From Sphingobacterium pedocola (GTDB taxonomy: Bacteria > Bacteroidota > Bacteroidia > Sphingobacteriales > Sphingobacteriaceae): DNA of 64,000 nt. The notes beneath the pieces are model-generated. The model ran no database searches. It had not been told where the DNA came from and worked only from the letters and a program-made list of their open reading frames with translations. The position numbers and the translations under genes were made by a program. The stretch lies in assembly GCF_015209965.1 (NCBI RefSeq), contig NZ_MU158689.1, positions 450,648 through 514,647 on the forward strand, read 5' to 3'. This document shows, piece by piece, positions 1 to 20,400 of this stretch (position 1 is its first letter; each line of letters opens with the position of its first letter).

Positions 1-659
1 AGAAATATACTGTACTTGCCGGCCGCTTTGCCACTCTTGCTATACTCCACTTGGATGAAGTCCGTATTGGCATTATAGTTGGCATCGTTTACCATCAGCT
101 CCCAGGCCTTGCCATTGTATTGGTACACCCGATTGTTGTCATTGTCCCGATAGGCCCACCCATTTTGTGGACTGGGGGGTGGGTTTTGTATGAATCCTCT
201 CCAGTTGATATAAATACTATCATTCTGCGCCGTCCCCCTATGTCCATTGATGTCCATTTGGAACCAGGCATTGCTGCGATAGATATATTGATATCCGTCT
301 ATTGTATTGCGGTACGCCTCATTTTCTGCGACCGTGTTGGGATGGGAAGCCGCATCTGCACGCCATTTTATATTTCCTTCGGTACTACCGTTAATCCCTA
401 TGGCAGCATTGATGATTTCTCCTGGTCGAGCGACGAAACGTATGGAATCGGTCCACCTTGAGTTGTAATACCGTTGACGAAGGTATAAGTCGTCGGTCTC
501 ATAATTGTCATCCCAACCGTCGGTAGCCAGTGTATCGCCCGGCAGATCGTAGATAAGGGTACTACGTCCGTCGTCGTAATTTGGCGTAAGGTCTTCCAGT
601 TTATAACACGAGGCGAGTCCTAATGTTATTAATGTAATTGCGACAATCAATCTACTCAT
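1..659 (-). CDS. Partial lipoprotein in the HmuY slot of the heme operon
   Basis: This open frame begins with ATG at 659 and runs off the left edge, so the C-terminus is missing. The first 18 residues form a lipoprotein signal ending in the lipobox LASC (Cys18). Residues about 33-43 read STLIYDLPGDT, nearly the same as STVIYDLAGDT in the HmuY-like protein encoded at 6527-7231. The visible remainder is rich in Asn, Tyr and Asp and does not show the HmuY core motif WDLAF/WDISF, which could lie beyond the edge or be absent. It starts 53 bp after the gene upstream in the same leftward operon, at the position where the repeating order HmuY-B-A would place another HmuY gene. A surface or periplasmic lipoprotein involved in heme acquisition is an inference from position and this one motif. 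Confidence 0.6.
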   Translation of the reverse strand, partial: MSRLIVAITLITLGLASCYKLEDLTPNYDDGRSTLIYDLPGDTLATDGWDDNYETDDLYLRQRYYNSRWTDSIRFVARPGEIINAAIGINGSTEGNIKWRADAASHPNTVAENEAYRNTIDGYQYIYRSNAWFQMDINGHRGTAQNDSIYINWRGFIQNPPPSPQNGWAYRDNDNNRVYQYNGKAWELMVNDANYNANTDFIQVEYSKSGKAAGKYSIF

Positions 660-712
660 ATAGAAAGGATGAAGTTTAAAGTTAGTCTGTACATGCTGAG
701 TGGATAGTTTCT

Positions 713-2125
713 TTAGTTAGTAATATGTGTGTTGGTCAGCTTTTTTCGTGGCAATATGGTATTGTTGATCGGCGTGCCGCGAAAGGTGAGACCTATGATT
801 ACCACTTCTTTGTTCAGTACGGCTGTGGCGGTGGTTGGTATGGTAAAGGTAATCCGATTGCCCGATATGGCTCGGTTGGCGGGTGGGATATTATAGGTAC
901 TGTAAACCCCGGTGCTGGCATCTTTAAGTCCAAGTGCCAATGCAGCGAATGTAGTATATGCGGATCCGATAGCGCTGTCATCAAAAGTGTAATCTAAGGT
1001 CATCTCTTCTCCCGCTTTGATTTGTTTTCCCTCATGTGAAAATTCAAGGGTAGCATACCTCGTTGCCTCGATTATTGGTTGAAATAGGGCTGTGGAAAGA
1101 GGAGAGCCTATAGTGTAGCTGTAGCTACTATTACTATGACGCAAGGAGAAGTTAAATATTCTATAATGTTTATAGGTGTTGAAAAAGTCGGGTGCCACCT
1201 TTACCACAATATTTCCGATTTCTGAGATGCTGACCAAATTTTTATCGATAGTGACGCTTAAGCCATTGATTACTTGTCCCGGAATGATTTGCTGTAGCCC
1301 TAAGCCGAAGGATGCGATGTCACTGATGCTGTAATAGCGGTTAAAAACTGCTTGCCAGCCTTCCTTGACATTGATCTTAAACTCCAAATCGGAGCCAATA
1401 GGCACATTGCCGTAGTTGGAATACGTCACATCGTTTATTATGCTAGTTAATGTCGGCAGCAAAAGATTGATGTTAATAACACTCGATTTGAAATCTCCTA
1501 CTTTTACATACAAGCGGTGAATCCCGGTATCTAATTCGGAAGTTAGTGCGGGTAATGTGGCTTGAAGTAGGTTTGTTGTCGCTGTGCTTTCGTCGAAAGG
1601 TACGTCAAATTCAAACCCATCGCTTACACGTTGCAAGTATACTTTGATGTCTTTAACATCTCCAGTAGAAAGAAAATACTGGCCGTTAATGTTAATGGGT
1701 GTCGGAGATGACCAGGAATAAAATGTTGGGGCGTTATATATCGAGGGTACTGCAATGTTGAATACTGGTTTTAAATTGAATACCGAGATACTACCGTCTT
1801 CGGCGGTGACGGTATACGTCGTGTTCTCTGAAAAATCAACTTCTTCACCGGAAGCGGGGGAGATGGATGCGCCTTCTGAGACTTTGATGTGAGGGGTTAT
1901 CTTCGCTGGTCGCTCAGCATCCGGACTCCAGTAAACGGTGATTTGATTGTTGTTGATGACGGCATCCAAACTATCGATATCCCCATAACCGGAAATACTG
2001 AACTGTTCGATGCTGTTGAATGGTTTTAAGATTTGTTCGTATTCCGTTTTACAGGCATTCATCACCGAGATGCTCGCGACAAACAGCAGGAAAAGAACGA
2101 TTTTCTGTATATATATATTGCGCAT
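713..2125 (-). CDS. DUF5018-like lipoprotein, module protein A (copy 1)
   Basis: A 470-residue predicted lipoprotein with lipobox VMNAC near residue 25. Residues about 35-125 form a DUF5018-like all-beta domain, recognisable by the run EGASISPASG followed by TTYTVTAEDGS. The next part looks like further Ig/IPT-type beta domains. It is a paralogue of the protein at 4258-5325: the N-terminal 200 residues and the C-terminal part (SFDDSAIGS-like region and IPTTATA) match, but this copy carries roughly 115 extra residues in the middle. It is sixth in a leftward operon of lipoproteins that includes two HmuY-type heme-binding proteins. No enzymatic motif is seen. A surface-exposed partner of HmuY in heme capture is inferred from context only; the biochemical role is unknown. 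Confidence 0.7.
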   Translation of the reverse strand: MRNIYIQKIVLFLLFVASISVMNACKTEYEQILKPFNSIEQFSISGYGDIDSLDAVINNNQITVYWSPDAERPAKITPHIKVSEGASISPASGEEVDFSENTTYTVTAEDGSISVFNLKPVFNIAVPSIYNAPTFYSWSSPTPININGQYFLSTGDVKDIKVYLQRVSDGFEFDVPFDESTATTNLLQATLPALTSELDTGIHRLYVKVGDFKSSVININLLLPTLTSIINDVTYSNYGNVPIGSDLEFKINVKEGWQAVFNRYYSISDIASFGLGLQQIIPGQVINGLSVTIDKNLVSISEIGNIVVKVAPDFFNTYKHYRIFNFSLRHSNSSYSYTIGSPLSTALFQPIIEATRYATLEFSHEGKQIKAGEEMTLDYTFDDSAIGSAYTTFAALALGLKDASTGVYSTYNIPPANRAISGNRITFTIPTTATAVLNKEVVIIGLTFRGTPINNTILPRKKLTNTHITN

Positions 2126-2162
2126 GTTTTCTTGATCAAATAGATTTTGTAATAGGGTTGGA

Positions 2163-3341
2163 TTATTGTTTGGCTTTTACGGTTAAACCTGATGAACCGC
2201 CACGGTTTATCAAGACATCGTTACCAAGGTCTGTCTGCTCGTCGAAATCTCCATAGAAGGCGAGTCCATAAGTCGGTCGTGTGTGGTAGATAATGGTCGG
2301 AGACTGTGAATTCCATCCACTATTGGGGTATAAACCAATGGGTAGATCGGGAAAAATAGCCTTCACCGTGGTGCGGGTAGCACTCACAATTTTCATGGGC
2401 ACATTTTTGTTTAGGAGTTCCAAAGGAAAGCCTTCCGGTGTATATCGGATAGCGGTGTTTGGTATAAGTGTGTTGTAGGTGAGCGGATCTCCTGCAACGC
2501 GGGCGTATAGATTTTTTAGGCCTACAAACACGGTACCGTAGCGGTCATCTGTCGGGCTGTTCCGACTTATGGTAAATTCTATCGTGTCGCCAGCAGCATA
2601 ATGCATACTTGATGTTATTTGGGTCATGTAGGGTCTTCTATAATAGAGTTTCATAGGGTTCAGGTCTGTCACGCGCCCCTGATGCTCCATTTTTACGTCG
2701 TATTCACCGGCCATGGCATTTGGCGAAATGTCGACCAGCATGGTATATAAGGTGCCGGGGCTTACCGAAAAGGCTGTAGCATAGTCATTATGTTGTTCTC
2801 CCGTCGCTTTGTTCGTGAATACAAATCGGGCATTGGTACTGGTGGATTCGAAATTGCCAATTAATGTCAACCGGCCATTGACCGGTTTTTCCAGCAATGT
2901 TGTCGCATCCGGCGTACCACTAATACTTACATTTAATGTTTGACCATAGGGCAGTACTTTTTGTATGACCGCATAACTGCGTGAAGCTCCAGTAGCGCTT
3001 TTGACAGTGTACTTGGTGGTGTCAGCGCCTAATCTTAATGGTTCTAGACCACCATCTAGGTTGATTTCTTCACCTTCTGAATTATAGATGCTAGCCCCTT
3101 CATCCAGTCTAATTTCTGGCATAAGATATTCGATAGCATAGTAATAGGGAACATATAGCGTTATCGTGTTTTTTTCTTCGTTGATCGCTCCTAATAATTC
3201 CTGCTCCGTATTGGTAATGCTAAAGGCAAGGATTTTGTTAAATTCAGGCTTCTCGTAATCGACATGTGCTGTTTTGGTACAAGATAGAAATCCGAGAAGG
3301 AGGAGCATCCATATGCATGTCTTGGTGTGTATTTTATTCAT
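2163..3341 (-). CDS. Lipoprotein with DUF5018-like N-terminal domain, module protein B (copy 1)
   Basis: A 392-residue lipoprotein with lipobox GFLSC at residue 21. The N-terminal 120 residues carry a DUF5018-like pattern (DEGASIYNSEGEEINLDGG, then TKYTVKSATGASRSYAV), distantly related to the start of module protein A. The protein is clearly paralogous to the one at 5356-6501: shared stretches include CTKT at the lipid site, INLDGGLEP, SYAVIQK/SYTVIQK and the C-terminal DFDEQT motif. It lies 27 bp downstream of the HmuY gene at 3369-4250 and 37 bp upstream of protein A, so co-transcription is likely. Function is not known. Co-occurrence with HmuY in two copies suggests a dedicated partner, perhaps for surface heme binding, but this is inference. 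Confidence 0.7.
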   Translation of the reverse strand: MNKIHTKTCIWMLLLLGFLSCTKTAHVDYEKPEFNKILAFSITNTEQELLGAINEEKNTITLYVPYYYAIEYLMPEIRLDEGASIYNSEGEEINLDGGLEPLRLGADTTKYTVKSATGASRSYAVIQKVLPYGQTLNVSISGTPDATTLLEKPVNGRLTLIGNFESTSTNARFVFTNKATGEQHNDYATAFSVSPGTLYTMLVDISPNAMAGEYDVKMEHQGRVTDLNPMKLYYRRPYMTQITSSMHYAAGDTIEFTISRNSPTDDRYGTVFVGLKNLYARVAGDPLTYNTLIPNTAIRYTPEGFPLELLNKNVPMKIVSATRTTVKAIFPDLPIGLYPNSGWNSQSPTIIYHTRPTYGLAFYGDFDEQTDLGNDVLINRGGSSGLTVKAKQ

Positions 3342-3368
3342 TATGATAATAACATTGAAGTAATTAAA

Positions 3369-4250
3369 TTATATTCCCACTGTTGTTTTTTTTGTGTTTA
3401 GATTTATGTGTAAGGACGGATTACGTGTGACGAAGCCGAAGCGTTTTTCATCTTTTTTTATAATCATATAACGAAAGCTCACATACGGAATGGCACCTAC
3501 TCCCCGTAACATGGCCATGGGGTCTGTGACGCCTTTGTAAAAACTCTGCACTTCCATTTTGGCATAATTGCCGTTTGCCGTTCGTATAATGATTGTCCGC
3601 GGAACAACTTTTATTTTTCGAGGGCCGTACTCTCCGGGAAAAGCCTTTGCCATATCTTCCGAAAGAGGATACATCATGTGTTGATAAAGGTATCCGTTGT
3701 CTTGTTCCAGCTTCTCCGGTCTGAAAATGTTGTCGAAAAAAGTGTAAAAGGTATGACCTCCCGGGTTCAACGCATCACCCATGCCCGCTAGTCCTGCAAG
3801 ACCTGGGATCTTAAAATCGGCGTCGTCGGGTACATCCATCACTTCGCTATAGGGCTGCTCTAACACAACCACTCCTCCTATACTGGAGGAGCCATAACCA
3901 AAGCCTGTGGTAGATCCGTTATTGGATATGATGGCTGTTCTATACAATCCGGAGAAAGAGATATCCCAACGGTCACTTGTCCTATAAGCTGTGGGTACCG
4001 ACGAAAACTTATTGAGGCTGAAAAATAAGGGATCTGAGCCATCCAATGGACGGTGGCTCTCCGGTATGTTGTTAACACCAAGGTCAAGAATTTGTATTTC
4101 CCTATTGAATACGGAATCACTTGGAGGGAGATCAGGATCCCAATCGTAACCATTGAGATCGTAGACTTCGCCACAGGAAGTAAGGGCTAAAAGAGTACTA
4201 CAAACTGTAAAAAGTACTATACTTCTCGTGCATACTTTAATTTTCTTCAT
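3369..4250 (-). CDS. HmuY-family heme-binding lipoprotein (copy 1)
   Basis: A 293-residue lipoprotein with lipobox ALTSC (Cys26). The HmuY-family pattern is visible: RWDISFSGLYRTAI near residue 93, a VVLEQPYSEV segment, the stretch NGNYAKMEVQSFYKG and a terminal SFRYMI strand. HmuY proteins in Porphyromonas and relatives are outer-membrane lipoproteins that take heme from host or environmental hemoproteins and pass it to a TonB-dependent receptor. This copy is longer than the paralogue at 6527-7231 and contains a Gly/Ser-rich insert around residue 115. It follows module protein A copy 2 after only 7 bp. No TonB-dependent heme receptor is seen in the window; it may be encoded further left. Heme ligands cannot be assigned from sequence alone. 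Confidence 0.8.
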   Translation of the reverse strand: MKKIKVCTRSIVLFTVCSTLLALTSCGEVYDLNGYDWDPDLPPSDSVFNREIQILDLGVNNIPESHRPLDGSDPLFFSLNKFSSVPTAYRTSDRWDISFSGLYRTAIISNNGSTTGFGYGSSSIGGVVVLEQPYSEVMDVPDDADFKIPGLAGLAGMGDALNPGGHTFYTFFDNIFRPEKLEQDNGYLYQHMMYPLSEDMAKAFPGEYGPRKIKVVPRTIIIRTANGNYAKMEVQSFYKGVTDPMAMLRGVGAIPYVSFRYMIIKKDEKRFGFVTRNPSLHINLNTKKTTVGI

Positions 4251-4257
4251 TATCGAA

Positions 4258-5325
4258 CTAATTGGCTACAATAATTGTGTTTTTATTCGGTGTGATTTGA
4301 TACGAATAATTGTCCGTGTAAGTTGGTCTATTTACCATTGGTGCTTTGGGGAGAAATGTGACAGAAGAAATATAACCCCCTATTGCATTTGTTGCAGTCG
4401 TAGGTAGTACGAATGTAATCTTATTGTCTGCAAGCGTGAAGTTTGATATGGATATATTGGCAACGCCTACAGTACCATTAGCTCTTGGTACAGCTTGAAT
4501 ATTTAAACCTATAGTAGCACCGAAATTGTTTTGAAAATACCGAACTACCGCTCCATCAAAGTCATCTGAAAGTGCATAATTTAAGGTCAATTCTTGGCCC
4601 AACTTTACATTTTGACCAATCTGCTCCAAATGCATACCATGAGTTAACAGACTAGTAGGAGGTTGTCTAATATACACGTCTACATGTCCTGATGTCAAAT
4701 CTCCAACTTTGAGCCATATCTTGTGCCATCCTGTGTCTTGTTGAGCTGTCAGTCGAGGTAACTTTACATCCAAACTTGTGGAAGTTGCTGTTTCAGGATC
4801 AAATGGTATATCAAATTCCAAACCGTCCTTTACCCTTTGTCCATAAACTTTGACTTTACTTAAATCTGTCGCTAGAAAATATTCACCAAACAACTTGAAA
4901 TCTCGAACGGTTCCCCATCTTAAAACGCTTGTAGAGGTATTAATTGCATTTGTGCTATTTAAGATAGGTATAGGTTGCTGAACGATAGGTTTGATTGTAT
5001 AGTTACGGACAGTACCGTCTTCTGCGGTCACTGTATAAGTCGTGTTTTCAGAGAATTCCACTTCTGTTCCTGACGCTGGTGATATTGTTGCTCCTTCTGA
5101 CACACGAATTGTAGGTTTTATCTGTATTGGTAAGGGATTATCTGAATTCCAATAGACCTGAATTTCATCACCAGAAATAGCTGCATTAACAGAGTCTAGA
5201 CTTCCATATCCTGCTACTGAAAATTTTATAACCTCGTTGTATGGTCGTTTGATTGTTTCTGTTTTGGAACATGATACAATGAACAACGCTAATAAAGAAA
5301 ATATAACTGTTTTATAAATATTCAT
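4258..5325 (-). CDS. DUF5018-like lipoprotein, module protein A (copy 2)
   Basis: A 355-residue lipoprotein with lipobox FIVSC (Cys19). It is the shorter paralogue of the protein at 713-2125. The first domain has the same landmarks (SVAGYGSLDS, EGATISPASG, TTYTVTAEDG), and both proteins carry FDIPFD/FDVPFD and IPTTAT/LPTTAT. It lacks about 115 middle residues found in copy 1. It sits 30 bp after module protein B copy 2 and 7 bp before HmuY copy 1, so the two modules are joined in one transcription unit. Its DNA looks more AT-rich than copy 1 by eye, suggesting the two modules have diverged for some time or come from different sources. Role unknown; heme acquisition partner by context. Confidence 0.7.
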   Translation of the reverse strand: MNIYKTVIFSLLALFIVSCSKTETIKRPYNEVIKFSVAGYGSLDSVNAAISGDEIQVYWNSDNPLPIQIKPTIRVSEGATISPASGTEVEFSENTTYTVTAEDGTVRNYTIKPIVQQPIPILNSTNAINTSTSVLRWGTVRDFKLFGEYFLATDLSKVKVYGQRVKDGLEFDIPFDPETATSTSLDVKLPRLTAQQDTGWHKIWLKVGDLTSGHVDVYIRQPPTSLLTHGMHLEQIGQNVKLGQELTLNYALSDDFDGAVVRYFQNNFGATIGLNIQAVPRANGTVGVANISISNFTLADNKITFVLPTTATNAIGGYISSVTFLPKAPMVNRPTYTDNYSYQITPNKNTIIVAN

Positions 5326-5355
5326 ATCAATAATAATCTTAAGTAAAATTGTATT

Positions 5356-6501
5356 TTATAGTACCTCTAATGTGCTCGATATTCCAGATAGCAGTACCCC
5401 ATTTCCCCAATTTGTTTGTTCGTCAAAATCAAAATAGAATCCCATGCCGATATCTGTTATAAATGGGAAATATTTTCCAAATGCGTAAAACGTACCATAT
5501 TTTCCTTGAGGTAGATTCGGGAATTTTACTCTTACTTCGGATCTATTCCATGAAATAATTTCTAAGGGGATCTCTTTATTGTAAAGATCTTCCGAAAATC
5601 CTTCTGGAGTTAGGTATACATAGGCTTTATCCATCTTTAGATAGACTCTTTTTAGCCCAATAAATACACCATTGTTATTATCGTATACTGCTCCATTGAG
5701 TAGACCATATCCTTCTGCTTTTAATATCATTTCTTCTCCAGGTGCATATTTTGTGGTAGACAAGAAAAAACCAGGTATTCCAGGCGTATATTTTAGTTTA
5801 ATATCGGGTAGATTTGTTTTTCTTCCCAGATGCTCCATACTGACTTCATACTCACCCGCAAGGGCTGTTGGTAGAATGTTGATGGTCATCACATAGTTTG
5901 GGGATCCTGAAACAATGTTATTTATTGACACAAAATCATCATGTGTTTTGCCCGTCAATTTATCTTTGAAATAGAATTTAGCTTGTGTGTTCGTAGACTC
6001 AAAATTTCCAGTTAATCTTAAAAGACTATGTACAGGTTTTTCTAAAGTGACACCTTCAACAGCTCCAATATAACTAACAGTCAGTGGAGAACTATGGGCT
6101 GCAATTTTTTGAATAACCGTATAGCTGCGTCTTGCGCCAGTACTACTCTCAACAATGTATTTTGTATTTTGCCCCAGTGGAATTGGTTCTAAACCTCCGT
6201 CCAGATTTATAAGTTCACCTTCTACATCCAACAAACTGGCACCCTCGTCTAATTTTATTGTAGCGTCCAATACACTTAAGCTGATGAAGTATGGTATATA
6301 TACAGTGATCGTATTATTATCATTATCAATAGCGCCCAATAATTCTCCTGTTGCCGTTTTTATTTTATACTCCAGAATGCGGTTTTTTTCTTCTTTTTGA
6401 TAATCTACTAACTCGGTCTTGGTACAAGCAAGAAATAGAGAGATTATACAAACTAGTGGTATAAAAATGTTGTTGAGGTCAAATCTCAATTTTGTTTTCA
6501 T
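5356..6501 (-). CDS. Lipoprotein with DUF5018-like N-terminal domain, module protein B (copy 2)
   Basis: A 381-residue predicted lipoprotein with lipobox LFLAC (Cys26, followed by TKTE). It is paralogous to the protein at 2163-3341 along its whole length: ELLGAI, LDEGAS, LINLDGGLEP, SYTVIQK, a GEYEVSMEHLGR strand, and DFDEQT at the C-terminus. It lies 25 bp downstream of the HmuY gene at 6527-7231 and 30 bp upstream of module protein A copy 2. No catalytic motif is visible, and the fold appears to be a series of beta-sandwich domains. The conserved order HmuY-B-A in both modules is the main evidence that B works with HmuY. Confidence 0.7.
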   Translation of the reverse strand: MKTKLRFDLNNIFIPLVCIISLFLACTKTELVDYQKEEKNRILEYKIKTATGELLGAIDNDNNTITVYIPYFISLSVLDATIKLDEGASLLDVEGELINLDGGLEPIPLGQNTKYIVESSTGARRSYTVIQKIAAHSSPLTVSYIGAVEGVTLEKPVHSLLRLTGNFESTNTQAKFYFKDKLTGKTHDDFVSINNIVSGSPNYVMTINILPTALAGEYEVSMEHLGRKTNLPDIKLKYTPGIPGFFLSTTKYAPGEEMILKAEGYGLLNGAVYDNNNGVFIGLKRVYLKMDKAYVYLTPEGFSEDLYNKEIPLEIISWNRSEVRVKFPNLPQGKYGTFYAFGKYFPFITDIGMGFYFDFDEQTNWGNGVLLSGISSTLEVL

Positions 6502-6526
6502 TTTCGTGATTTATATAATAATTAAT

Positions 6527-7231
6527 TTAATTTGTTTTTAAATTTTTACTGCCATCCTGTTGTACAAAATATCGAAATGTCAAATAAGGAGCCGGCCAAT
6601 ATAGATCAGATACAGCTGGAGGATTACCTTTGTAGATACTAATGATCTGCAGTTTAGCAAATTTTCCATCGGCTAGACGGAGTAGATAAGTGCGGTTTGG
6701 ATAGGTTTTCATGATATGTGTTGTCATATCGTAGCTGTACCATCCGGGCGAACCACCATCGGTAGCCCATCCGATGGTGTGGATTGTGCTATTATCAAAT
6801 TCGCTGTCTGAAGGTGCTGTGCTCAAAGATTCATACGATTGATGGATTAGGATGATTGACGTATTATCGACTATACCATCGTAACCGGGTGTACCGGTAT
6901 ACTTTTTGTTGTTTATTTGTATATCGCCATTGTAATTGCCCGTAAAAGCCAGATCCCATTCACCCGTCTTAAACCATTTCAACGAATCTGCCTTAGTACG
7001 GATCCAGATTTGTTTCTTTAGCTCGAGATTGTACAGAAAGGTATAGAAAGGACGTTTTTCTTTTCCATCGATTCCTTCAGCAATAGAGGCTTTGGTGTCG
7101 CCGGCCAAATCATATATAACTGTACTCTTGCCATCTTCTAAAGATGGCGTAGCTTCTTCTTTTGCACAATTTGTAAGTAGTATTACGAGTGTAAAAGCAA
7201 AGAGTTTATTTAAACCAATTCTAAATAACAT
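6527..7231 (-). CDS. HmuY-family heme-binding lipoprotein (copy 2), first gene of the operon
   Basis: A 234-residue HmuY-type lipoprotein. Recognisable features are the lipobox LLTNC, the N-terminal strand STVIYDLAGDT, the core GEWDLAFTGNYNGDI, an ILIHQSYE segment, DGKFAKLQIISIYKG, and the terminal LTFRYFV strand. An in-frame ATG exists at 7273, but that codon lies inside an 18-bp operator repeat (7264-7281) and would add a charged segment before the signal peptide. The ATG at 7231 gives a normal lipoprotein signal (MLFRIGLNKLF...), and a CACATTTG -7-like box ends 5 bp before it. I therefore chose 7231. Expression is probably controlled from the 21-bp-spaced repeats at 7264-7302. Role: surface heme capture, by family. 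Confidence 0.82.
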   Translation of the reverse strand: MLFRIGLNKLFAFTLVILLTNCAKEEATPSLEDGKSTVIYDLAGDTKASIAEGIDGKEKRPFYTFLYNLELKKQIWIRTKADSLKWFKTGEWDLAFTGNYNGDIQINNKKYTGTPGYDGIVDNTSIILIHQSYESLSTAPSDSEFDNSTIHTIGWATDGGSPGWYSYDMTTHIMKTYPNRTYLLRLADGKFAKLQIISIYKGNPPAVSDLYWPAPYLTFRYFVQQDGSKNLKTN

Positions 7232-7341: not shown

Positions 7342-7602
7342 TTAGTTGCTCAAAATAAATTGCTGTTGTCGTTTTTTCGTACAAATGGGAACAATACATT
7401 TGAGTTTTACCAAGAGCCTGACCGTTTTATGTACGGTAGCCCAACTAATGCGGTGTTCTTGGCGGATATATAGCCAAAGATCATCGATGCTGCCTGTAAA
7501 AGGGGTAGCACATAAGGTATCGATGATAATCAGACGTTGCTGACTGATGATATAACCGTGTTCAGTCAGCAACGTCAATATGGTCTGCTTTGTGCTTTCC
7601 AT
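7342..7602 (-). CDS. Fur-like winged-helix protein, DNA-binding domain only
   Basis: An 86-residue protein matching the N-terminal winged-helix domain of the Fur family: helix 1/2 with ISQQRLIIIDTL, then ISWATVHKTVRLL, the counterpart of the family's recognition helix (usually ISLATVYRTLKLL), and a wing ending at the C-terminus. The C-terminal dimerisation and metal-binding domain of Fur (about 60 more residues with His/Cys ligands) is absent. It is encoded 8 bp after the heme oxygenase gene, in the same leftward unit, and before the operator of the HmuY operon. It could be a natural small regulator or a decayed Fur. The intact short frame, family-like residues and placement beside heme genes favour a functional protein, possibly sensing metal or heme by another route. 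Confidence 0.65.
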   Translation of the reverse strand: MESTKQTILTLLTEHGYIISQQRLIIIDTLCATPFTGSIDDLWLYIRQEHRISWATVHKTVRLLVKLKCIVPICTKKRQQQFILSN

Positions 7603-7610
7603 CTACAGGG

Positions 7611-8171
7611 CTAACTTGCGGCTGCCGTTTCGAACACATGGCCGAAACGTGTGAAAGTCTCGTCGGCAGCTTCGAGTATAATCCGTTCTTCTGCTTCTGT
7701 TTGGGGCAGGCTGTTTAATACCGTGGTAAATGACTGCCACATTTTTCCACTATCTGCTCCGTATCCAGAGAAGAAATTAAAGCCTTTGTCCATGCCGTAC
7801 TTTTGCAGCATCTGTACAATGTATGGCCCACCCATAATCGAACCTTCTAGCACGTATAATGCGCCAAAAGCTTGTAGGGTATTGCTAATTTGCGGTGCCT
7901 GTGCTATAGGAAGGACGTTGATGTCACCGCCGAGTTCTTCAATATCTTTCTTGATGTAAGAAGAGTTTCTTCTTTCTGCCATGTCAGGCAGGTTGCCACT
8001 ATTAATGTAAGGGGCTATCGCTTGCTCTACTGCATGAAAATAAGCGTAGAAATTCTTCAATACATTGGCGTAGTCTGCGTTGCTTCGTACACTTTTTAGC
8101 TGCAAAACAACTGTCTTTTCTAATTGTTGATGGGCCTGTTGCGTGGCCTCTTTGATTTTTGTATTTACCAT
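7611..8171 (-). CDS. Biliverdin-producing heme oxygenase
   Basis: A 186-residue soluble protein of the bacterial heme oxygenase family (HO/BphO type). It opens heme to biliverdin, CO and iron, which releases iron from imported heme in the cytoplasm. The N-terminal motif IKEATQQAHQQLE places the proximal heme ligand at His14. The middle segment GALYVLEGSIMGG corresponds to the distal helix with its flexible glycines. Length is normal for the family. It starts at ATG 8171, seven bases after a CACTTTTG -7-like box, and is divergent from hmuT. The neighbouring HmuY genes, ABC hemin transporter and Fur-like protein make heme-iron use the evident purpose. Likely regulated through the repeats at 8207-8245. 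Confidence 0.85.
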   Translation of the reverse strand: MVNTKIKEATQQAHQQLEKTVVLQLKSVRSNADYANVLKNFYAYFHAVEQAIAPYINSGNLPDMAERRNSSYIKKDIEELGGDINVLPIAQAPQISNTLQAFGALYVLEGSIMGGPYIVQMLQKYGMDKGFNFFSGYGADSGKMWQSFTTVLNSLPQTEAEERIILEAADETFTRFGHVFETAAAS

Positions 8172-8301: not shown

Positions 8302-8308
8302 CATGGAT

Positions 8309-9148
8309 ATGAAACAGAACATTTTCTTATGTTGGCTTTTCTTAATTGTTTTTGCTGCGCAAACAGCTGTTGCACAGCAGCGTATCATTACATTGAGTAG
8401 TGCTTTGAGTGAAACGGTACACGCCTTAGGTAAATCCAAAAATATAGTCGCTGTGGATGTGACGAGTGAATATCCACAAGAAATTAAGCAGAAGCCTCGA
8501 GCGAGTAGGGATCGCACTTTTGCATTAGAAGGCCTATTGGCCTTTAAACCGGATATGATCCTTACCCCACCTAACGAGATCAGTTATGCTGTTGAAGTAA
8601 AATTGAAAAAGCTGGGGGTCAGGGTAATTACTATAGAGCAAGAGTATTCGGCATCGGGTGCAGAACGCTTTATAAAAGAAGTTTCTCAGGCTATCGGTGC
8701 AAATTCAGAGGGAGCGATTTTAATTAAAAAGTTCAATACAGAATTAGCGCATGCCCTGAAAACTATCAAGGTGCAACGTAAACCCAAGGTACTCTTTGTC
8801 TATGCACGAGGTGTTGGTCTAATGAGCGTAGCAGGAAAAGGCAGTCATATCGATGCGATTATATCTTTGGCGGGAGGCCGTAATGCTGTACAAGAATTTA
8901 ACGATTTCAAACCGTACAGTACCGAAGCGCTGATAAAAGCTAACCCAGACGTTTTGTTGTTGTTTGATTTCGGAACAACTAGTCTCGGTGGAAAAAATGC
9001 AGTGTTGAATATGCCCGGAGTATCGCTCACGAACGCGGGTAAAAATAAGCATGTCATTTCGATGGATGGCCCATTGCTGATTAATTTTTCAACACGATTG
9101 CCGCAAGCTATCTTAGCGCTTAACAAACATTTGCTCACTGTAAAGTAA
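8309..9148 (+). CDS. hmuT: Hemin ABC transporter periplasmic substrate-binding protein HmuT
   Basis: A periplasmic binding protein of the BtuF/HmuT cluster, about 279 residues. A signal peptide (MKQNIFLCWLFLIVFAAQ... ending near AVAQ) is followed by the two lobes typical of class III binding proteins. RIITLSSALSETVHALG opens the N-lobe, and FKPDMILTPP and NPDVLLLFDFG are strand motifs of each lobe. It should carry heme across the periplasm to the permease encoded 6 bp downstream. I chose ATG 8309 because it begins directly with the signal peptide and the promoter-like box ends at 8301; ATG 8303 would add only Met-Asp. Specificity for hemin, rather than siderophore or cobalamin, rests on the adjoining heme oxygenase and HmuY genes. 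Confidence 0.85.
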   Translation: MKQNIFLCWLFLIVFAAQTAVAQQRIITLSSALSETVHALGKSKNIVAVDVTSEYPQEIKQKPRASRDRTFALEGLLAFKPDMILTPPNEISYAVEVKLKKLGVRVITIEQEYSASGAERFIKEVSQAIGANSEGAILIKKFNTELAHALKTIKVQRKPKVLFVYARGVGLMSVAGKGSHIDAIISLAGGRNAVQEFNDFKPYSTEALIKANPDVLLLFDFGTTSLGGKNAVLNMPGVSLTNAGKNKHVISMDGPLLINFSTRLPQAILALNKHLLTVK

Positions 9149-9154
9149 TATTTT

Positions 9155-10195
9155 TTGAAAAGGCAATTTATCTATCTATCGTTTATCATTATACTGTCTT
9201 TCTCTACAGTGTTGTCTTTAAGTTTTGGTGCGTTTTATATTCCATGGCGAGATGTGTGGTTGAGTATGGTCCACAAGCTGGGATTTTTTCAATCGGAAGC
9301 TATAGATGAACTTCATAGTGGGGTCATCACACTGGTACGTTGGCCTAGGACGTTACTGGGAATCTTGGTTGGTGCAGCATTAGGGGTTAGTGGCGCGGCG
9401 ATACAGGCAATTTTTCGGAATCCTTTGGCAGAGCCAGGTTTGATCGGCATATCCGCTGGAGCATCTTTGGTAGCAGCTTCGATTATCGCTTTCGAAACAT
9501 TGCTATTTTCTACACTTGGTTCGTTATTTGGCCATTATTTATTGGCATTTGGTGCTTTTTTTGGTGCAGGATTAGCTACTTGGATAGTGTATCAGATAGC
9601 GTTGTATGAGGGCAAACCCCATATTGGTACGATGCTGCTTGCTGGGGTAGCCATCAATGCTTTAGCAGGCTCATTGACGGGATTGATTTCTTTTGTCTCA
9701 GACGAGCAGCAGCTCCGCTCTATTACATTTTGGATGTTAGGTAGCCTCGGAGGTGCTTCGTGGGAAACTGTATGGACGATGTCGCCCTTTGTATTAGTGG
9801 CATTAGTCGGACTACCGCTTCGTGCAAGAGCCTTGAATGCGTTGTCCTTAGGAGAACAGGAGGCGCAGCAGTTGGGGCAACGCCCTAATAAGATTAAGAT
9901 CATGGTTGTTCTATTGGCGACGATGGCGGTGGGTGCTGCTGTATCTGTGTCAGGAATAATCGGTTTTGTAGGTCTATTAGTGCCACATGCAGTGCGTATG
10001 ATAGGAGGTTCAGACAATAGATACGTATTACCAGCATCTGCTTTGTTGGGTAGTATAATCCTGACGATAGCAGACTTGATCGCTCGTACGATCGTTCCTC
10101 CGTCTGAAATACCGATTGGCGTCGTGACGGCATTACTAGGGACACCTCTATTTTTGTATATACTGATAAGGGATAAAAAGAAAATAATTATTTAA
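9155..10195 (+). CDS. hmuU: Hemin ABC transporter permease HmuU (FecCD family)
   Basis: A 346-residue permease of the FecCD/BtuC family with about ten hydrophobic segments. Family motifs are clear: RWPRTLLGILVGAALGVSGAAIQ near residue 60, NPLAEPGLIGISAGA near 88, and the cytoplasmic loop LGEQEAQQLGQ around residue 235, which contacts the ATPase. The C-terminal GIIGFVGLLVPHAVRMIGG is highly typical. The reading frame has no ATG near its beginning; TTG at 9155 is the likely start, giving MKRQFIYLSF and the first membrane segment, 6 bp after hmuT. It forms the inner-membrane channel for heme with the products of hmuT and hmuV. Confidence 0.88.
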   Translation: MKRQFIYLSFIIILSFSTVLSLSFGAFYIPWRDVWLSMVHKLGFFQSEAIDELHSGVITLVRWPRTLLGILVGAALGVSGAAIQAIFRNPLAEPGLIGISAGASLVAASIIAFETLLFSTLGSLFGHYLLAFGAFFGAGLATWIVYQIALYEGKPHIGTMLLAGVAINALAGSLTGLISFVSDEQQLRSITFWMLGSLGGASWETVWTMSPFVLVALVGLPLRARALNALSLGEQEAQQLGQRPNKIKIMVVLLATMAVGAAVSVSGIIGFVGLLVPHAVRMIGGSDNRYVLPASALLGSIILTIADLIARTIVPPSEIPIGVVTALLGTPLFLYILIRDKKKIII

Positions 10196-10274: not shown

Positions 10275-11090
10275 ATGCTGGTAGCAGAGAATCTAACTTA
10301 CACCATTAAAAAATGCCCTATCCTTAAAGGGATAAATTTTGTGATACACCCAGGAGAAATGGTAGGTTTATTGGGTGCAAATGGTGCAGGTAAATCGAGT
10401 TTGATTAAATTGTTAAATGCGGAGCATACGGCGACAGCGGGAAAGGTCAAATTAAACGGTGTTGACCTGAGGTCTTATTCGGCGATTTCCTTAGCCAAAA
10501 TGCGGGCCACGATGGCGCAGCAACAGCAAATGTCGGCCGATTTTTCCGTTAAGGAAGTGGTTTTGATGGGGAGGTATCCACACTACGTGGGTAAACCAAA
10601 AGCTAGTGATTTGGAAGCTGTGGAGCAGACAATGGCGCTATGTGGCGTAACCCATCTTGAAGAACGATCTATTTTGAGCTTGTCTGGAGGTGAGCGCCAG
10701 CGTGTACATTTGGCTAGGATATTAGCGCAATTATGGGGGCAACCCAACGCGTTGCTTCTACTGGATGAACCCATTTCAGCAATGGATATCAAGTTTCAGC
10801 ATCAGTCGTTGTCTTTAGTTCGCTCTTTAGCGGATAAAGGATGGATGATTGTTGCAGTACTTCACGATATTAACTTGGCTGCGCAATATGTTGATCGGTT
10901 GTTTTTGATGAAAAATGGTCGAAAATTGATGGATGGAACACCTTCTGAAGTATTGAATTCTAGAAATATCTATACCATCTTTGGGATCGATGCTGAAGTG
11001 GTAGTTAATCCAAAGACTCTGCATACGTATATCGTACCATCCGCGTTGAAACCCGCTGTTTTTGAATTCGATAAAAGTATGGTTTTATAG
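10275..11090 (+). CDS. hmuV: Hemin ABC transporter ATP-binding protein HmuV
   Basis: A 271-residue ABC ATPase of the FepC/HmuV group. Walker A is GANGAGKSS near residue 34, the signature is LSGGERQRVHLARIL near 136, Walker B is LLLLDEPISAMD near 158, and the switch histidine is in VLHDINLAAQY. It energises import of heme through HmuU. The gene follows hmuU after 79 bp containing T-rich sequence but no obvious terminator, so it is probably in the same transcription unit. Length is slightly above the usual 255-260 because of a C-terminal extension of about 15 residues. Confidence 0.88.
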   Translation: MLVAENLTYTIKKCPILKGINFVIHPGEMVGLLGANGAGKSSLIKLLNAEHTATAGKVKLNGVDLRSYSAISLAKMRATMAQQQQMSADFSVKEVVLMGRYPHYVGKPKASDLEAVEQTMALCGVTHLEERSILSLSGGERQRVHLARILAQLWGQPNALLLLDEPISAMDIKFQHQSLSLVRSLADKGWMIVAVLHDINLAAQYVDRLFLMKNGRKLMDGTPSEVLNSRNIYTIFGIDAEVVVNPKTLHTYIVPSALKPAVFEFDKSMVL

Positions 11091-11172: not shown

Positions 11173-12150
11173 ATGTTGATCAGATCCCGTATAGGAGGGT
11201 TGTCAAATTGGTTATTTGAAGAAAATATACCCGATGCTTACGTGCCGAACTATAGTTTGGAGGAAAAAGAAGTCAATGTACAGGAAGAAGCCATCTTTTT
11301 GCATAATAAACAAGTCACTTCGGGTGGTTTATTTCTGATGAATTCGGAGATGCGCTTCGATAAACCAACCCATATTTATACAGAAGTCAACGGAGAAACA
11401 ATCACCAGTCAATTTATTTTTTACAAGAAGGCAGCAGAACAGTTCAAAGGAAAGTCTAATGCTTTGTATGGTCGAAGTCGTCATAATATCCGTTACATCC
11501 CGACAACTACTAGTGAGCACGAGGTTAAGGAAGGGATTGACTACATGTATTTCCTCATCGTGCTGAGTAAAGACTATTATTTTAATTTGATAGACCGGCA
11601 TTCTATCTTGCATGAAGATTTTGTAAAAGAAATAGAACGTGGTAACTATACCTCATTTGCTTCGGAGGATTTCTTTGTGACATTAGAGATGCGACGTGTT
11701 ATTGACGACATGGTCAATTGTCGTCAGGTAGGCGAACTGAAACGTATACACACAGAGGCGCGTATTTTGGAATTGCTGATGTACCAACTGGAACAATTGG
11801 GTGGTAATGGACATGAACAGGAGCTTATTAAAGGTGATGACATATTTAAATTGGAACAGGCTCGTGAGGTGTTGAAATCCCGCTATGCTTCGCCTCCTAC
11901 ACAAAAGGACCTGTCACGAGAGGTCGGACTAAATGAATTTAAGTTGCGCAGGGGGTTTAAAGAATACTTTGGTATTACGGTATATGATTTTATTACCAGG
12001 CTGCGTATGGAGAAAGCACGAAAGCTTTTATTGGAAGAACAGATGACAATCAGCGAAGTTACTGCTTTGGTCGGGTTTTCGCACCAGAATAATTTTAGTA
12101 TTGCTTTTAAGAAATATTTCGGACTACCGCCCAGTGAGTTGAAGGCTTGA
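11173..12150 (+). CDS. AraC-family transcriptional regulator
   Basis: A 325-residue regulator with a two-helix-turn-helix AraC domain at residues about 232-325. Landmarks are TQKDLSREVGLNEFKLRRGFKEYFG (first HTH and linker start), MEKARKLLLEEQMTISEVTALVGF (second HTH), and the family ending SHQNNFSIAFKKYFGLPPSEL. The N-terminal 220 residues form an effector-binding domain like that of PchR-type regulators of iron and siderophore uptake. It lies 82 bp after hmuV in the heme locus. The 21-bp-spaced direct repeats at 7264-7302 and 8207-8245 have the geometry expected of AraC half-sites, so I propose this protein as their ligand; the effector may be heme or biliverdin. That assignment is inference. 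Confidence 0.85.
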   Translation: MLIRSRIGGLSNWLFEENIPDAYVPNYSLEEKEVNVQEEAIFLHNKQVTSGGLFLMNSEMRFDKPTHIYTEVNGETITSQFIFYKKAAEQFKGKSNALYGRSRHNIRYIPTTTSEHEVKEGIDYMYFLIVLSKDYYFNLIDRHSILHEDFVKEIERGNYTSFASEDFFVTLEMRRVIDDMVNCRQVGELKRIHTEARILELLMYQLEQLGGNGHEQELIKGDDIFKLEQAREVLKSRYASPPTQKDLSREVGLNEFKLRRGFKEYFGITVYDFITRLRMEKARKLLLEEQMTISEVTALVGFSHQNNFSIAFKKYFGLPPSELKA

Positions 12151-14109: not shown

Positions 14110-15093
14110 ATGAATAATAGAAGAAATTTTATTAAGAAACTAGGACTTGCGTCTGTGGGTGTAGGTCTTGTTTCTTTACAAAAAACGAATGCGGCAGCTA
14201 AAAGGAAGATCAATAAGCCCATTGTGGTATCAACTTGGGATTTCGGTTTGAAAGCAAATGAAGAAGCCTGGAAAGTTCTCGATGCTAATGGGCGGGCATT
14301 GGATGCCGTAGAGCAAGGAGTACGGTATACCGAAGCCGATCCGAACGAGCGCAGTGTGGGTTATGGTGGAAGACCGGATCGCGATGGCAAGGTAACGCTA
14401 GATGCCTGTATCATGGATGAAATGGCTAATATTGGTTCTGTTGCAGCACTGCAGCATATAAAACACCCTATTTCTGTCGCCCGGGCGGTCATGGAAAAAA
14501 CGCCACATGTGATGCTGGTAGGTGAGGGGGCACTTCAATTTGCCAAAGACCAAGGGTACACCGAAGAAAACCTATTGACCGAAACCTCAGAAAAGGAATG
14601 GAAAGAATGGTTGAAAACATCCAAATATGAGCCGATAGTCAATATTGAGAATCACGATACCATCGGTATGATTGCATTGGATTCTGCCGGAAATCTCTCC
14701 GGTGCATGTACGACTAGTGGTATGGCTTATAAAATGCACGGACGGGTGGGAGACTCTCCAATTATTGGTGCCGGACTTTACGTAGACAACGAGATTGGCG
14801 CGGCTACGGCTACAGGACACGGCGAAGAGGTGATCCGGACGGTAGGCAGTCATTTGGTCGTAGAACTGATGCGTCAGGGACATGCTCCACAAATAGCTTG
14901 TGAGGAAGCCGTGAAACGTATTGTTAAGTTTACCCAAAACTGTCAAAAATCTTTGGACAATATTCAAGTCGGGTTTATTGCGCTGAATAAAAGTGGAGAA
15001 TACGGTTCTTATTGTATACATGGAGGTTTTAATTATGCTAAATATGATGCAAAAGGAAATGAGTTGATAAAATCCGATCATTACTTAAAATAA
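14110..15093 (+). CDS. Glycosylasparaginase-type N-terminal nucleophile hydrolase (Tat-exported)
   Basis: A 327-residue protein of the asparaginase-2 / N4-(beta-N-acetylglucosaminyl)-L-asparaginase family. These proenzymes cleave themselves before a catalytic threonine, here in NHDTIGMIALD with Thr near residue 184. SGMAYKMHGRVGDSPIIGAGLY and ATGHGEE are substrate-pocket motifs typical of the glycosylasparaginase branch rather than plant-type isoaspartyl peptidase. The N-terminus has a twin-arginine-like signal (NNRRNFIKK followed by a hydrophobic stretch), so export to the periplasm is likely. The reaction would release aspartate and the GlcNAc-linked sugar from glycoasparagine. cutC follows after 3 bp. 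Confidence 0.85.
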   Translation: MNNRRNFIKKLGLASVGVGLVSLQKTNAAAKRKINKPIVVSTWDFGLKANEEAWKVLDANGRALDAVEQGVRYTEADPNERSVGYGGRPDRDGKVTLDACIMDEMANIGSVAALQHIKHPISVARAVMEKTPHVMLVGEGALQFAKDQGYTEENLLTETSEKEWKEWLKTSKYEPIVNIENHDTIGMIALDSAGNLSGACTTSGMAYKMHGRVGDSPIIGAGLYVDNEIGAATATGHGEEVIRTVGSHLVVELMRQGHAPQIACEEAVKRIVKFTQNCQKSLDNIQVGFIALNKSGEYGSYCIHGGFNYAKYDAKGNELIKSDHYLK

Positions 15094-15096
15094 CAA

Positions 15097-15771
15097 ATGG
15101 CAAAATTAGAAATTGCTTGTTTCCATCCGGATTCGGCGAGGATCGCTCAGGAAAATGGTGCAGACCGTGTTGAGCTGTGTGCTGAAATGCATGTCGGAGG
15201 AACGAGTCCCTCCACAGATATGGTAAAGAATGTACGGAGTCAGGTGCAAATTGATCTAAATGTTATGATTCGGCCCCGGGGGGGAGATTTTGTCTATTCC
15301 ATCGCCGAATTCGAGCAGATGAAACAAGAGATTGTGGCGTTTAAGGAATTGGCGGTAGATGGCTTTGTTTTTGGTATTCTGGATCTTCAAGGTGCCGTCA
15401 ATATAACGCAAAATACAGAGTTGGTCGAGTTGGCTCATCCCTTGCCTTGCACCTTTCATCGGGCATTTGACGTCGTCAAAAATTTGGAGACGGCGTTGGA
15501 AGATGTCATTACTTGCGGATTTAAGGCCATATTGACGTCTGGTTGTGCGCCAAATGTGGATTTAGGACTGGTGAACTTGGGTAAATTAGTCAAACAAGCT
15601 GTAGGGCGTATTACGATCATGCCAGGTGGCGGTTTACGGTCGTCCAATATTACCCGTGTTTTACGTGAAACCGGTGCACAGTATGTTCATTCTTCAGCGA
15701 TAACAGATGGATCAGAAACGGCGGTAGCCGATGAGGTTGCGGCATTGGCGGGTAGTGTGCGGCAAGCCTGA
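15097..15771 (+). CDS. cutC: CutC family protein
   Basis: A 224-residue TIM-barrel protein of the CutC family. Family motifs are LEIACFHPDSARIAQENGADRVELC at the N-terminus, GGTSPS, MIRPRGGDF, a TFHRAFDV strand and MPGGGLRSSNI near residue 180. CutC was named for copper homeostasis in E. coli, but that role is disputed and many bacterial members probably have a metabolic function. Here it is tightly coupled (3 bp) to a glycosylasparaginase gene, which supports a role in breakdown of glycoprotein-derived sugars or amino acids; this is inference. Confidence 0.85.
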   Translation: MAKLEIACFHPDSARIAQENGADRVELCAEMHVGGTSPSTDMVKNVRSQVQIDLNVMIRPRGGDFVYSIAEFEQMKQEIVAFKELAVDGFVFGILDLQGAVNITQNTELVELAHPLPCTFHRAFDVVKNLETALEDVITCGFKAILTSGCAPNVDLGLVNLGKLVKQAVGRITIMPGGGLRSSNITRVLRETGAQYVHSSAITDGSETAVADEVAALAGSVRQA

Positions 15772-17418: not shown

Positions 17419-17446
17419 CAAGTAGGGGCTTGTAGCCCGTTACTTG
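17419..17446 (-). terminator. Hairpin at the helicase stop codon
   Basis: CAAGTA-GGGGCT and AGCCCG-TTACTTG form a near-perfect hairpin overlapping the helicase stop codon at 17440-17442. It lacks a clear T-tract, so termination is only possible. Confidence 0.3.
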
Positions 17447-20400
17447 CCTGAAATAACTTTCTTATGTTCACTTTTCAGTGCTTTCGGTTTTTTTCTGTTA
17501 ACATGATCAAACAGGATAATTTTTTCTTTAAAACTCATGGTGATTTGCTCTGGATTCTCGCACCACCACATGTAAAATTCGACCGGATGGTCGGTATAGG
17601 GTATAATAGCTTTCAAGGGGGTATTATATCCCTTAAATTGGATCACGAGCTGTAGGCGGAGGGTTCCGCGGTAATACTCGAAGTGATATGCTTTTAACTT
17701 GGATACTAAAATACCGTATGTTTTGATATCCAGTTTAAAATCAATTGCACGTCTATTTTTATCAAGGGCGACGGGATCATTCATCAACCATTCGGAAATC
17801 CGCATGGTACGTACCTCGTCTTCGGTTTCAATCGTAAGTAATTTACTTTGCGTCAATACACTATCTTTTGTCGCCGAAAAGATATGTAAGTTGGTGTCAG
17901 TTTGGGGTACTATCTCTGCCTCCTCCTCCGGTTCTGTCCCTTTTTTCTTTACAGTGCCTTCATTAGAAAGGATTAGTTTTTCCAACTGATCTTTCAGGTC
18001 TACATTATTTCTATCCGAGGTAGGGTATTTTCCGAATAAGGCATCCACTTCCATACCTAAAAAATAATCTTCTATAAATCTCCATCTGTCGTTGTGACTA
18101 AAATCATTGAGGAAAAAATGATCGAATAGCCGCATGTTTAATTCATGTCTTTCCAGTGTTTTATCAAGCAAAGTGTTCTTGTATTCCGCATGGTGGGTGT
18201 CGATTTCTAAACGGGCTGGATCGTTTAAGCGGATGGCTACCAACGTATTTGATCCACCTTTTATTTCGAAGGTGGCCAATCCTAAGATCTCGAGAAAGTT
18301 CCCCAATCTGACATAGCTATCAGAGTTAGCACGTTTGCTTGTCAGAAATCGACTCACAGTCCGTTTTTCCGTATTTCCAAATAAACTCTGTAGTCTATTT
18401 GTCAGTCCGGTAAATGTATTGCTACAAGGATTGGTCAACGCAATATACTTGTCCTCACCACCAACTTTACGTCTTTGTAAAAAGATATGCGGGAGGTAGG
18501 TTTTTTGCCCAAAGGCTGCAGTCATATAGGCTGTAAATAACAGATGGCTAATCTTTTTTACGATTTCCTTGTCTGTTATTTTCTTACCGAGCTGCTGTTC
18601 AAATTCATATTGTGTGAAATACCCGGTTAGGAGGGAGAAAACCTGTTCAATGGCATCGAAGGTGCGACGTATTTTATAAGATATAGCTGTGAAAGAATCC
18701 GTTTGTACGAATGTGATCTTTATCTGCGGAGTCAGTGTAATGTTATCTTGTTTGAATAAAGTACCGGTGTAAAATGTGTTTTTTAACGCGTCAAAGCTTT
18801 GTTTGCTAAAGTACTGTTTCCAGATTTTGTCTAGGTCTAATGCGACGATATGCTCGCCATTTTTTCGTATGCTGATAGATCGATGTGTATTCGGATAGAA
18901 GTTTTCCAAGTTTACAAGATCTTGTGCGCTAACTTTGGCGTATCCTTGAACAGACAGTTTCTTCGGACGAGCGGTAACGACGGGAAATCGATATTTGGCA
19001 AGATAGTCTTTTTCGATCATCATGAGTGTCGTTAGCACTTTCTGTTGAATATCTTGCCCCTGCTCGAAAATGTACTCGAAATCATCGGTCGATAAGATCA
19101 GGTTTCTGTTTTTATCATTACGTAGGTAAGAGAGGTGAATTTTTTGCAATACATCTTGAATCTGTTGCGGTCGTATGGCAGACATGTAATTGAGCGCCTT
19201 GGCGTAGCGTAGGTCTTCTGGTGCATAGTTTATCGCTGCTAGCCCTGTGATATCCGTTTGTCGGGCTACTCTTCCTATTTCTTGTATGTAATCAGGCAAT
19301 AGCCCAGAGGGGGCATGGTGATACACTAGCTCGATGTCGGCGATATCGATCCCCATACCAAATGCTTTTGTCGAGATCATGATGTTCTTTTTCCCACTTT
19401 TGAACTGTCGGAACGCGAATTCTTTGATTTCTGCAGCCATACCGCCGTGATAACCTGTGGCAATATCAAGCTTTCTACTATTCAAGGCTTCCATGATCTT
19501 ACTGATATGTCTTGTGTAGGGCGTATATACCAACGTTTTTAATCCGAGATCGTGTGCTTCCGTAATAAAGGAAACCGTTTGTTGTAATTTATTTGCTTCG
19601 TATTTTGATTCGAAGCCATTGTAGTTATGAACGGCGAATGTAATATCATCTCTCTTTACTTGACCAATGAACATATGGGGAGACTGCATGTTTAGACTAG
19701 CCATGCTATCAAATACCATATCGTTAGTCCCTCCATATATCGATGTAGCAGTAACAGCCACCATGGTGAAATGGAGGTTGTGATGTTTTCTAAGTTTTCG
19801 TACGTGCTCTCCCAGAAACCAATAATCAACCCGGAAATCCCTTCCCCAAGTTGTTATCAGATGCGCTTCATCAACGATGAGAAGTCCAAGTGTACGCTGG
19901 TCAATGAAATAGGAAAGGTCGTACGATAAAAGTAATTCTGGAGACATATACAAGATATCTATTTCACCATTTTTACAACGATCAATTACCTTTTCGCGGT
20001 CGATAAGTGATAGCTCGCCATTTAGATAGGCTACTTTTTCAAATTGTCTTTCCGATAGAATGCCCTGTACTTGGTCTTTCATTAATGCGATAAGTGGAGA
20101 CACCACGATGCTGACATCGTTTTGCGCGGATACGTAGTAGGCTGGCAGTTGAAAGATCAGGGATTTCCCGGAGCCTGTCGGAGCGGTTAAAAATATATCT
20201 CTGTTACCACTGTTGAGTTTTGCGTTCTTATATTCTGCAATAATGGTTTCCACGATCAGGCCTTGTGATATCTCAATAACTTCATTTCCTTGATCCGGAT
20301 TTTTGTAAATAGCAAGCTTTCTAAAAGTAGCGTCTTTTCCCCAGTATTTTTTTAGGAGTGCCTGTGTTTCTTCCTGAACAGGTAACTTGTCGCTGATTTG

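Follow-up and report, generated by a model that had tools for sequence, protein, structure and literature searches.

A heme-import operon of Sphingobacterium pedocola contains, next to its HmuY-type lipoproteins, two additional lipoprotein families, A and B, whose partnership with HmuY is well supported by comparative genomics. Judged by its genes, the locus is a heme-import operon with three HmuY-type lipoproteins, two TonB receptors, an ABC importer, a heme oxygenase, and regulators. The A and B proteins, which resemble surface glycan-binding proteins (SGBPs), the sugar-capture proteins of Bacteroidota, are probably accessory surface lipoproteins that act beside the TonB receptor with class II HmuY, holding a heme-bearing protein or positioning HmuY without coordinating heme iron themselves. 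The association of an HmuY-type lipoprotein with a TonB receptor is already known (PMC9331221); new is an HmuY heme locus with SGBP-derived accessory lipoproteins. The literature search, which had most subscription journals outside its scope, returned nothing on SGBP-like partners of HmuY.

Organization of the locus

The cluster lies at the beginning of the window, the 64,000-nucleotide stretch of contig NZ_MU158689.1 that was analysed (Table 1). All six lipoprotein open reading frames of the preliminary description (Y1, B1, A1, Y2, B2, and A2) are present on the minus strand at the coordinates it gave. Each begins as a lipoprotein, and the gaps between them (25, 30, 7, 27, and 37 bp) fall in the reported range of 7–37 bp. 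That description missed the remainder of the operon, which is cut by the window edge: positions 659 to 1 hold the 5ʹ part of a third HmuY gene, Y3, which continues past base 1 and is followed there by two TonB-dependent receptors (787 and 788 aa). Upstream of Y1 are the Fur-like and heme oxygenase genes, and the HmuT-, HmuU-, and HmuV-like genes and the AraC gene are divergent.

Table 1. Features of the heme-import locus in the window and in the adjoining sequence (L005)
Feature	Position (strand)	Product	Remarks
TonB-dependent receptor 2	L005:9305-11671	TonB-dependent receptor	after Y3; outside the window
TonB-dependent receptor 1	L005:11691-14054	TonB-dependent receptor	after Y3; outside the window
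Y3	1..659 (-); full extent L005:14117-15307 (14117-15307 includes window 659 to 1)	third HmuY-like lipoprotein, class I branch	396 aa complete; 3ʹ part outside the window
A2	713..2125 (-)	SGBP-like lipoprotein, 470 aa	N-terminal DUF5018-type domain and further domains
B2	2163..3341 (-)	SGBP-like lipoprotein, 392 aa	
Y2	3369..4250 (-)	HmuY class II lipoprotein, 293 aa	class normally preceding B
A1	4258..5325 (-)	SGBP-like lipoprotein, 355 aa	structure model of low confidence
B1	5356..6501 (-)	SGBP-like lipoprotein, 381 aa	model is a chain of beta-sandwich domains
Y1	6527..7231 (-)	HmuY class I lipoprotein, 234 aa	
Fur-like	7342..7602 (-)	short Fur-like protein, 86 aa	position kept in several relatives
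Heme oxygenase	7611..8171 (-)	heme oxygenase	PF01126, 9e-19
HmuT-like	8303..9148 (+)	periplasmic binding protein	PF01497
HmuU-like	9155..10195 (+)	FecCD permease	PF01032
HmuV-like	10275..11090 (+)	ABC ATPase	PF00005
AraC	11173..12150 (+)	AraC-family regulator	kept together with the cluster

As in the P. gingivalis-type hmuYRSTUV operon, HmuY and receptors are present, but no CobN-like HmuS occurs among the cluster open reading frames and a heme oxygenase is found instead; the other large open reading frame nearby (17440-21153) is a helicase. No RNA family matched in the first 20 kb of the window. The short Fur-like protein (86–101 aa) is kept between heme oxygenase and Y1 in the window and in L024 (8940-9215), L025 (7857-8141), and L029 (13604-13909); it may be a Fur of which only the DNA-binding part remains and which controls this operon.

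A second related cluster, likewise overlooked before, is located approximately 1.06 Mb away in the same genome. Its genes comprise AraC, HmuVUT, a receptor, four HmuY-like lipoproteins, one B, one A, and an S41-protease lipoprotein. S41-family protease lipoproteins often stand near the end of such clusters (L006:16598-17929; also L083, L085, and L087) and might release heme from proteins. The HmuV-like ATPase of the second-cluster type measures about 570–620 aa and carries a C-terminal extension of about 300 aa (L006:4198-5937; similar in L026, L031, L034, and L070).

Two classes of HmuY

Y1 and Y2 are, by alignment and phylogeny, old paralogues belonging to different ancient HmuY classes. Both had been called HmuY from the outset. 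For Y1 this agrees with the Pfam HmuY model PF14064 (29.7 bits, cut-off 27); Y2 falls below that cut-off (21.9 bits) and joins the family by a profile comparison that aligns class I with class II at E 4e-33. Identity between Y1 and Y2 is only 24–29%, against 59% between Y1 and Y4 of the second cluster and about 30% between Y2 and Y6. In a tree of 68 HmuY proteins, Y1 (with Y3) and Y2 occupy separate clades, termed class I and class II, each of which has its own orthologues in other genera. Forcing Y1 and Y2 to be sisters costs 292 log units (p-AU 7e-5).

Each class has an invariant histidine, H172 in Y1 and H191 in Y2, and the two columns align with each other. In an alignment to solved structures that is distant and identifies no second ligand, this residue lies near the methionine preceding the same strand in 3U22. 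Y3 has no Pfam match, yet is 38–41% identical to Y1. The invariant histidine is missing from all eight Y3 orthologues examined; the orthologues are about 400–460 aa long, with a long extra N-terminal insertion. Because of the lost histidine and the extra N-terminal stretch, Y3 may act as an adaptor and not as a hemophore that coordinates iron.

Duplication of B and A

The locus had been described as a tandem repeat of three genes, and this does not hold: the members of separate HmuY classes are not copies from one such event, and only B and A are duplicated. Duplication of the whole Y-B-A set in the arrangement seen in the window is rejected by the HmuY tree and its AU test. The expectation that the A and B copies are paralogues that differ in base composition is upheld. 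A1 and A2 are 36–39% identical (z 75 versus shuffled sequence) and B1 and B2 43–46% (z 115), both far above shuffled sequence, and the GC contents are 35.5% and 37.3% for B1 and A1 and 44.4% and 43.1% for B2 and A2.

Gene order in relatives points to the unit that was copied. In Parapedobacter (L025/L030) and in L031, L086, L088, and L089, the order is class I HmuY (Y-I), class II HmuY (Y-II), B, A, Y3, and the receptor or receptors. L029 has the order Y-I, Y-II, B, A, B, A, Y3, and the order Y-I, B, A, Y-II, B, A, Y3 is limited to the window and L024. B1 and B2 of these last two loci pair off as orthologues (69% identity for B1), and B1 and B2 as sisters are rejected (p-AU 9e-9). The two B genes of L029 cluster together in the tree; therefore, duplication occurred more than once or the copies were homogenised in L029. 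Taken together, the trees, AU tests, and gene orders show that the duplicated unit was B-A, or Y-II-B-A with later loss of one Y-II, and that Y1 is not a copy of Y2 from that event. An ancestor of the order Y-I, Y-II, B, A, Y3 would by such copying have given Y-I, B, A, Y-II, B, A, Y3.

L024 (JASCOD010000003.1), the closest cluster to that of the window in both order and sequence, is titled "Flavobacteriaceae bacterium PS02338," a taxon name that may be wrong.

Co-inheritance of A and B with HmuY

The linkage of A and B to HmuY in a surface heme-capture locus, proposed from the window sequence, is borne out across the family. Among 301 family genomes, class I HmuY (E <= 1e-20) is found in 74–75, B (E <= 1e-12) in 55, and A in 54 (cut-off about 3e-24, set after a gap in the match list was seen). 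Class I HmuY is present in all 55 B genomes and all 54 A genomes; for B, the co-occurrence has a hypergeometric probability of 2.5e-44 with kinship among the genomes ignored. Only a few candidates were scored per genome, making copy numbers lower bounds; among the genes recovered, 62 of 62 A genes lie within 8 kb of a B gene and 56 of 63 B genes within 8 kb of class I HmuY. The same clusters also encode heme oxygenase, HmuTUV-like proteins, and TonB receptors.

The seven B genes distant from class I HmuY were read individually. Six have class II HmuY upstream, directly in four cases and one gene away in two, in class II HmuY-B-A units detached from the ABC genes. The seventh (L033) has only a small HmuY-like gene, located between B and A. 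B thus stands in an HmuY-family cluster in all cases read, and independence of A and B from HmuY, which predominant occurrence apart from HmuY in other genomes would have indicated, is ruled out. Class II HmuY commonly precedes B: it is immediately upstream of 24 of 31 distinct B genes and one gene further in three more.

Outside the family, the strongest matches (G140, G359, and G588) lie in the same kind of cluster and represent a second family. Weaker phylum-wide B matches (E >= 2e-12) cover the N-terminal domain only and are not near HmuY; some belong to SusCD loci. Comparable HmuY loci lacking A and B are common (L040-L045). Since every B genome has HmuY and such loci are common, A and B depend on HmuY but are optional to it. 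In G019, a B gene with an internal stop (L037:9443-10924) and its HmuY neighbour look degenerate; intact HmuY clusters are present elsewhere in that genome.

Relationship of A and B to SGBPs

A and B detectably share only their N-terminal domain (hhalign E 3e-13; B1 residues ~10–129) and separate cleanly in a tree (21 versus 21). The earlier label of DUF5018-like fits weakly for the N-terminal domain of A and fails for B. A1 and A2 score 32.2 and 23.1 bits against DUF5018 (PF16410), both below the curated cut-off of 38.2 bits that rules out membership, and a Pfam search gave no match for B1 or B2. Profile comparison reaches further. The B profile matches residues 117–203 of the levan-utilisome SGBP (5e-8), and the A profile matches 3hbz (1.7e-7), a Bacteroides structure called a putative glycoside hydrolase; the SGBP match is limited to the N-terminal domain. 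Relatives outside HmuY loci include some proteins encoded directly after SusC and SusD, one of which combines DUF5018 with DUF4960.

The B1 model (pLDDT 77) shows a signal helix and, after it, successive beta-sandwich domains; the A1 model is of lower confidence (pLDDT 66). Both models have one glycan-binding SGBP-B as their top PDB match; TM-scores are near 0.2, and numerous unrelated Ig chains follow. These low scores and unrelated chains support an Ig-chain architecture but do not warrant a more specific fold match. Conservation peaks in the N-terminal domain and is poor in the C-terminal parts. The predicted build is a lipid anchor, an N-terminal DUF5018-type Ig-like domain, and then variable Ig-like domains.

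The levan-utilisome SGBP (BT1761; 8A9Y, 8AA2), whose lipidated N-terminal and central domains are Ig-like (PMC7618045), and B. ovatus SGBP-B (6E57, 6E9B) are similar lipid-anchored Ig-like chains with a variable C-terminal part, a DUF5018-type N-terminal domain, and a gene beside a TonB receptor. A and B thus share with SGBPs the form of a lipoprotein with Ig-like domains including a DUF5018-type domain (the A model being weak). Unlike SGBPs, they are not encoded beside SusC and SusD; the A/B loci read contain heme genes in place of SusC, SusD, and glycosidases, and neither DUF4960 nor any other known glycan-binding domain was found in A or B. A lysine at +3 after the lipid cysteine recurs in A and B with acidic residues nearby, close to the surface-export signal C-X-K-(D/E)2 of Capnocytophaga (PMC5080379).

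Proposed function and alternatives

In P. gingivalis, HmuY passes heme to HmuR. In the following scheme, the exposure of the proteins at the surface, their assembly into a complex, the ligand, and the direction in which it moves are inferred. Heme would arrive free or protein-bound. A and B, lipid-anchored and held off the membrane on their Ig-like domains, would hold the heme source or bring class II HmuY into position. HmuY proteins of both classes would, as family members, bind heme and hand it to the receptors; by family assignment, the HmuTUV-like proteins would import it and heme oxygenase would open the ring. Heme as the ligand at this locus is read from context, since neither heme nor protoporphyrin is bound by some members of the HmuY family (PMC12106395).

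A more ambitious form of this scheme is a "heme utilisome," in which the architecture of the glycan utilisome has been re-used for heme: A and B, as SGBP-derived arms of a stable complex in the outer membrane, would bind whole hemoproteins or other carriers of heme and supply both HmuY classes and two TonB receptors. HmuY-HmuR complexes have been reported (PMC12578637), as have SGBP-SusC complexes, and in the levan utilisome the SGBP contacts SusC (PMC7618045). Receptors of about 790 aa are not SusC-sized, and no SusD occurs in the A/B clusters read, so the known SGBP docking surface may not exist here, a caveat for either form of the scheme. We consider a heme utilisome possible but doubtful.

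The earlier idea that the B-A copies differ in the heme source they serve, here widened to a difference in receptor, appears unlikely. The window genome and L024 each retain both copies as separate orthologues, consistent with some division of labour, and two receptors and three HmuY proteins are present at the locus. However, no sequence feature indicates a heme source, and two-receptor relatives (L025, L088, and L089) carry a single B-A pair.

A and B may alternatively have retained glycan binding, docking the system on host, plant, or own-surface glycan or catching glycosylated hemoproteins. Their N-terminal domain is common to SGBPs and SusCD-locus proteins, and the first fold match of the models is a glycan-bound SGBP-B. 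This is nevertheless improbable, as the domain in common is a spacer domain rather than the glycan-binding domain, and the missing glycan-binding domains, SusD, and glycosidases noted above also argue against it.

Heme binding by A and B themselves is unlikely on sequence grounds, and we give very little credence to a role as hemophores delivering heme to HmuY. Their genes lie in a heme locus, always adjoining HmuY, and B has conserved tyrosine columns (Y115, Y127, Y203, and Y218), a residue that can support heme binding. However, no histidine, methionine, or cysteine column reaches 50% conservation in 31 A or 31 B sequences, start methionine and lipid cysteine aside, which rules out hemophores with His/Met ligands, and neither profile nor structure comparisons reveal likeness to a heme-binding fold. 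Equally remote is the proposal that the operon carries A and B as generic surface lipoproteins with no role in heme capture: many genomes have the same type of HmuY cluster without them and their C-terminal parts vary, but strict A-B pairing and HmuY linkage extend across two families and to the detached class II HmuY-B-A units.

Comparison with known systems and significance

HmuY-HmuR of P. gingivalis and HfpY-HfpR of F. psychrophilum likewise place an HmuY-type lipoprotein beside a TonB-dependent receptor in an iron or heme context (PMC9331221). The window locus differs in having three HmuY proteins of two classes, two receptors, and a heme oxygenase, and in the addition of A and B, which are not described for those operons. 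BtuB-BtuG-BtuH of Bacteroides is alike in outline, combining a regular-size TonB receptor with capping and accessory surface lipoproteins for a scarce tetrapyrrole-type nutrient (PMC10404256); no relation of BtuG or BtuH to A and B was found, and the likeness is one of architecture only.

HmuY has been studied mostly in oral and gut anaerobes. The locus described here, which combines two HmuY classes with SGBP-like partners, is spread across Sphingobacteriaceae and reaches a second family. A and B are concrete candidate partners of HmuY for a testable role in heme delivery to the receptor, and if they do form a complex with it, heme would join glycans as a nutrient to which the utilisome principle applies.
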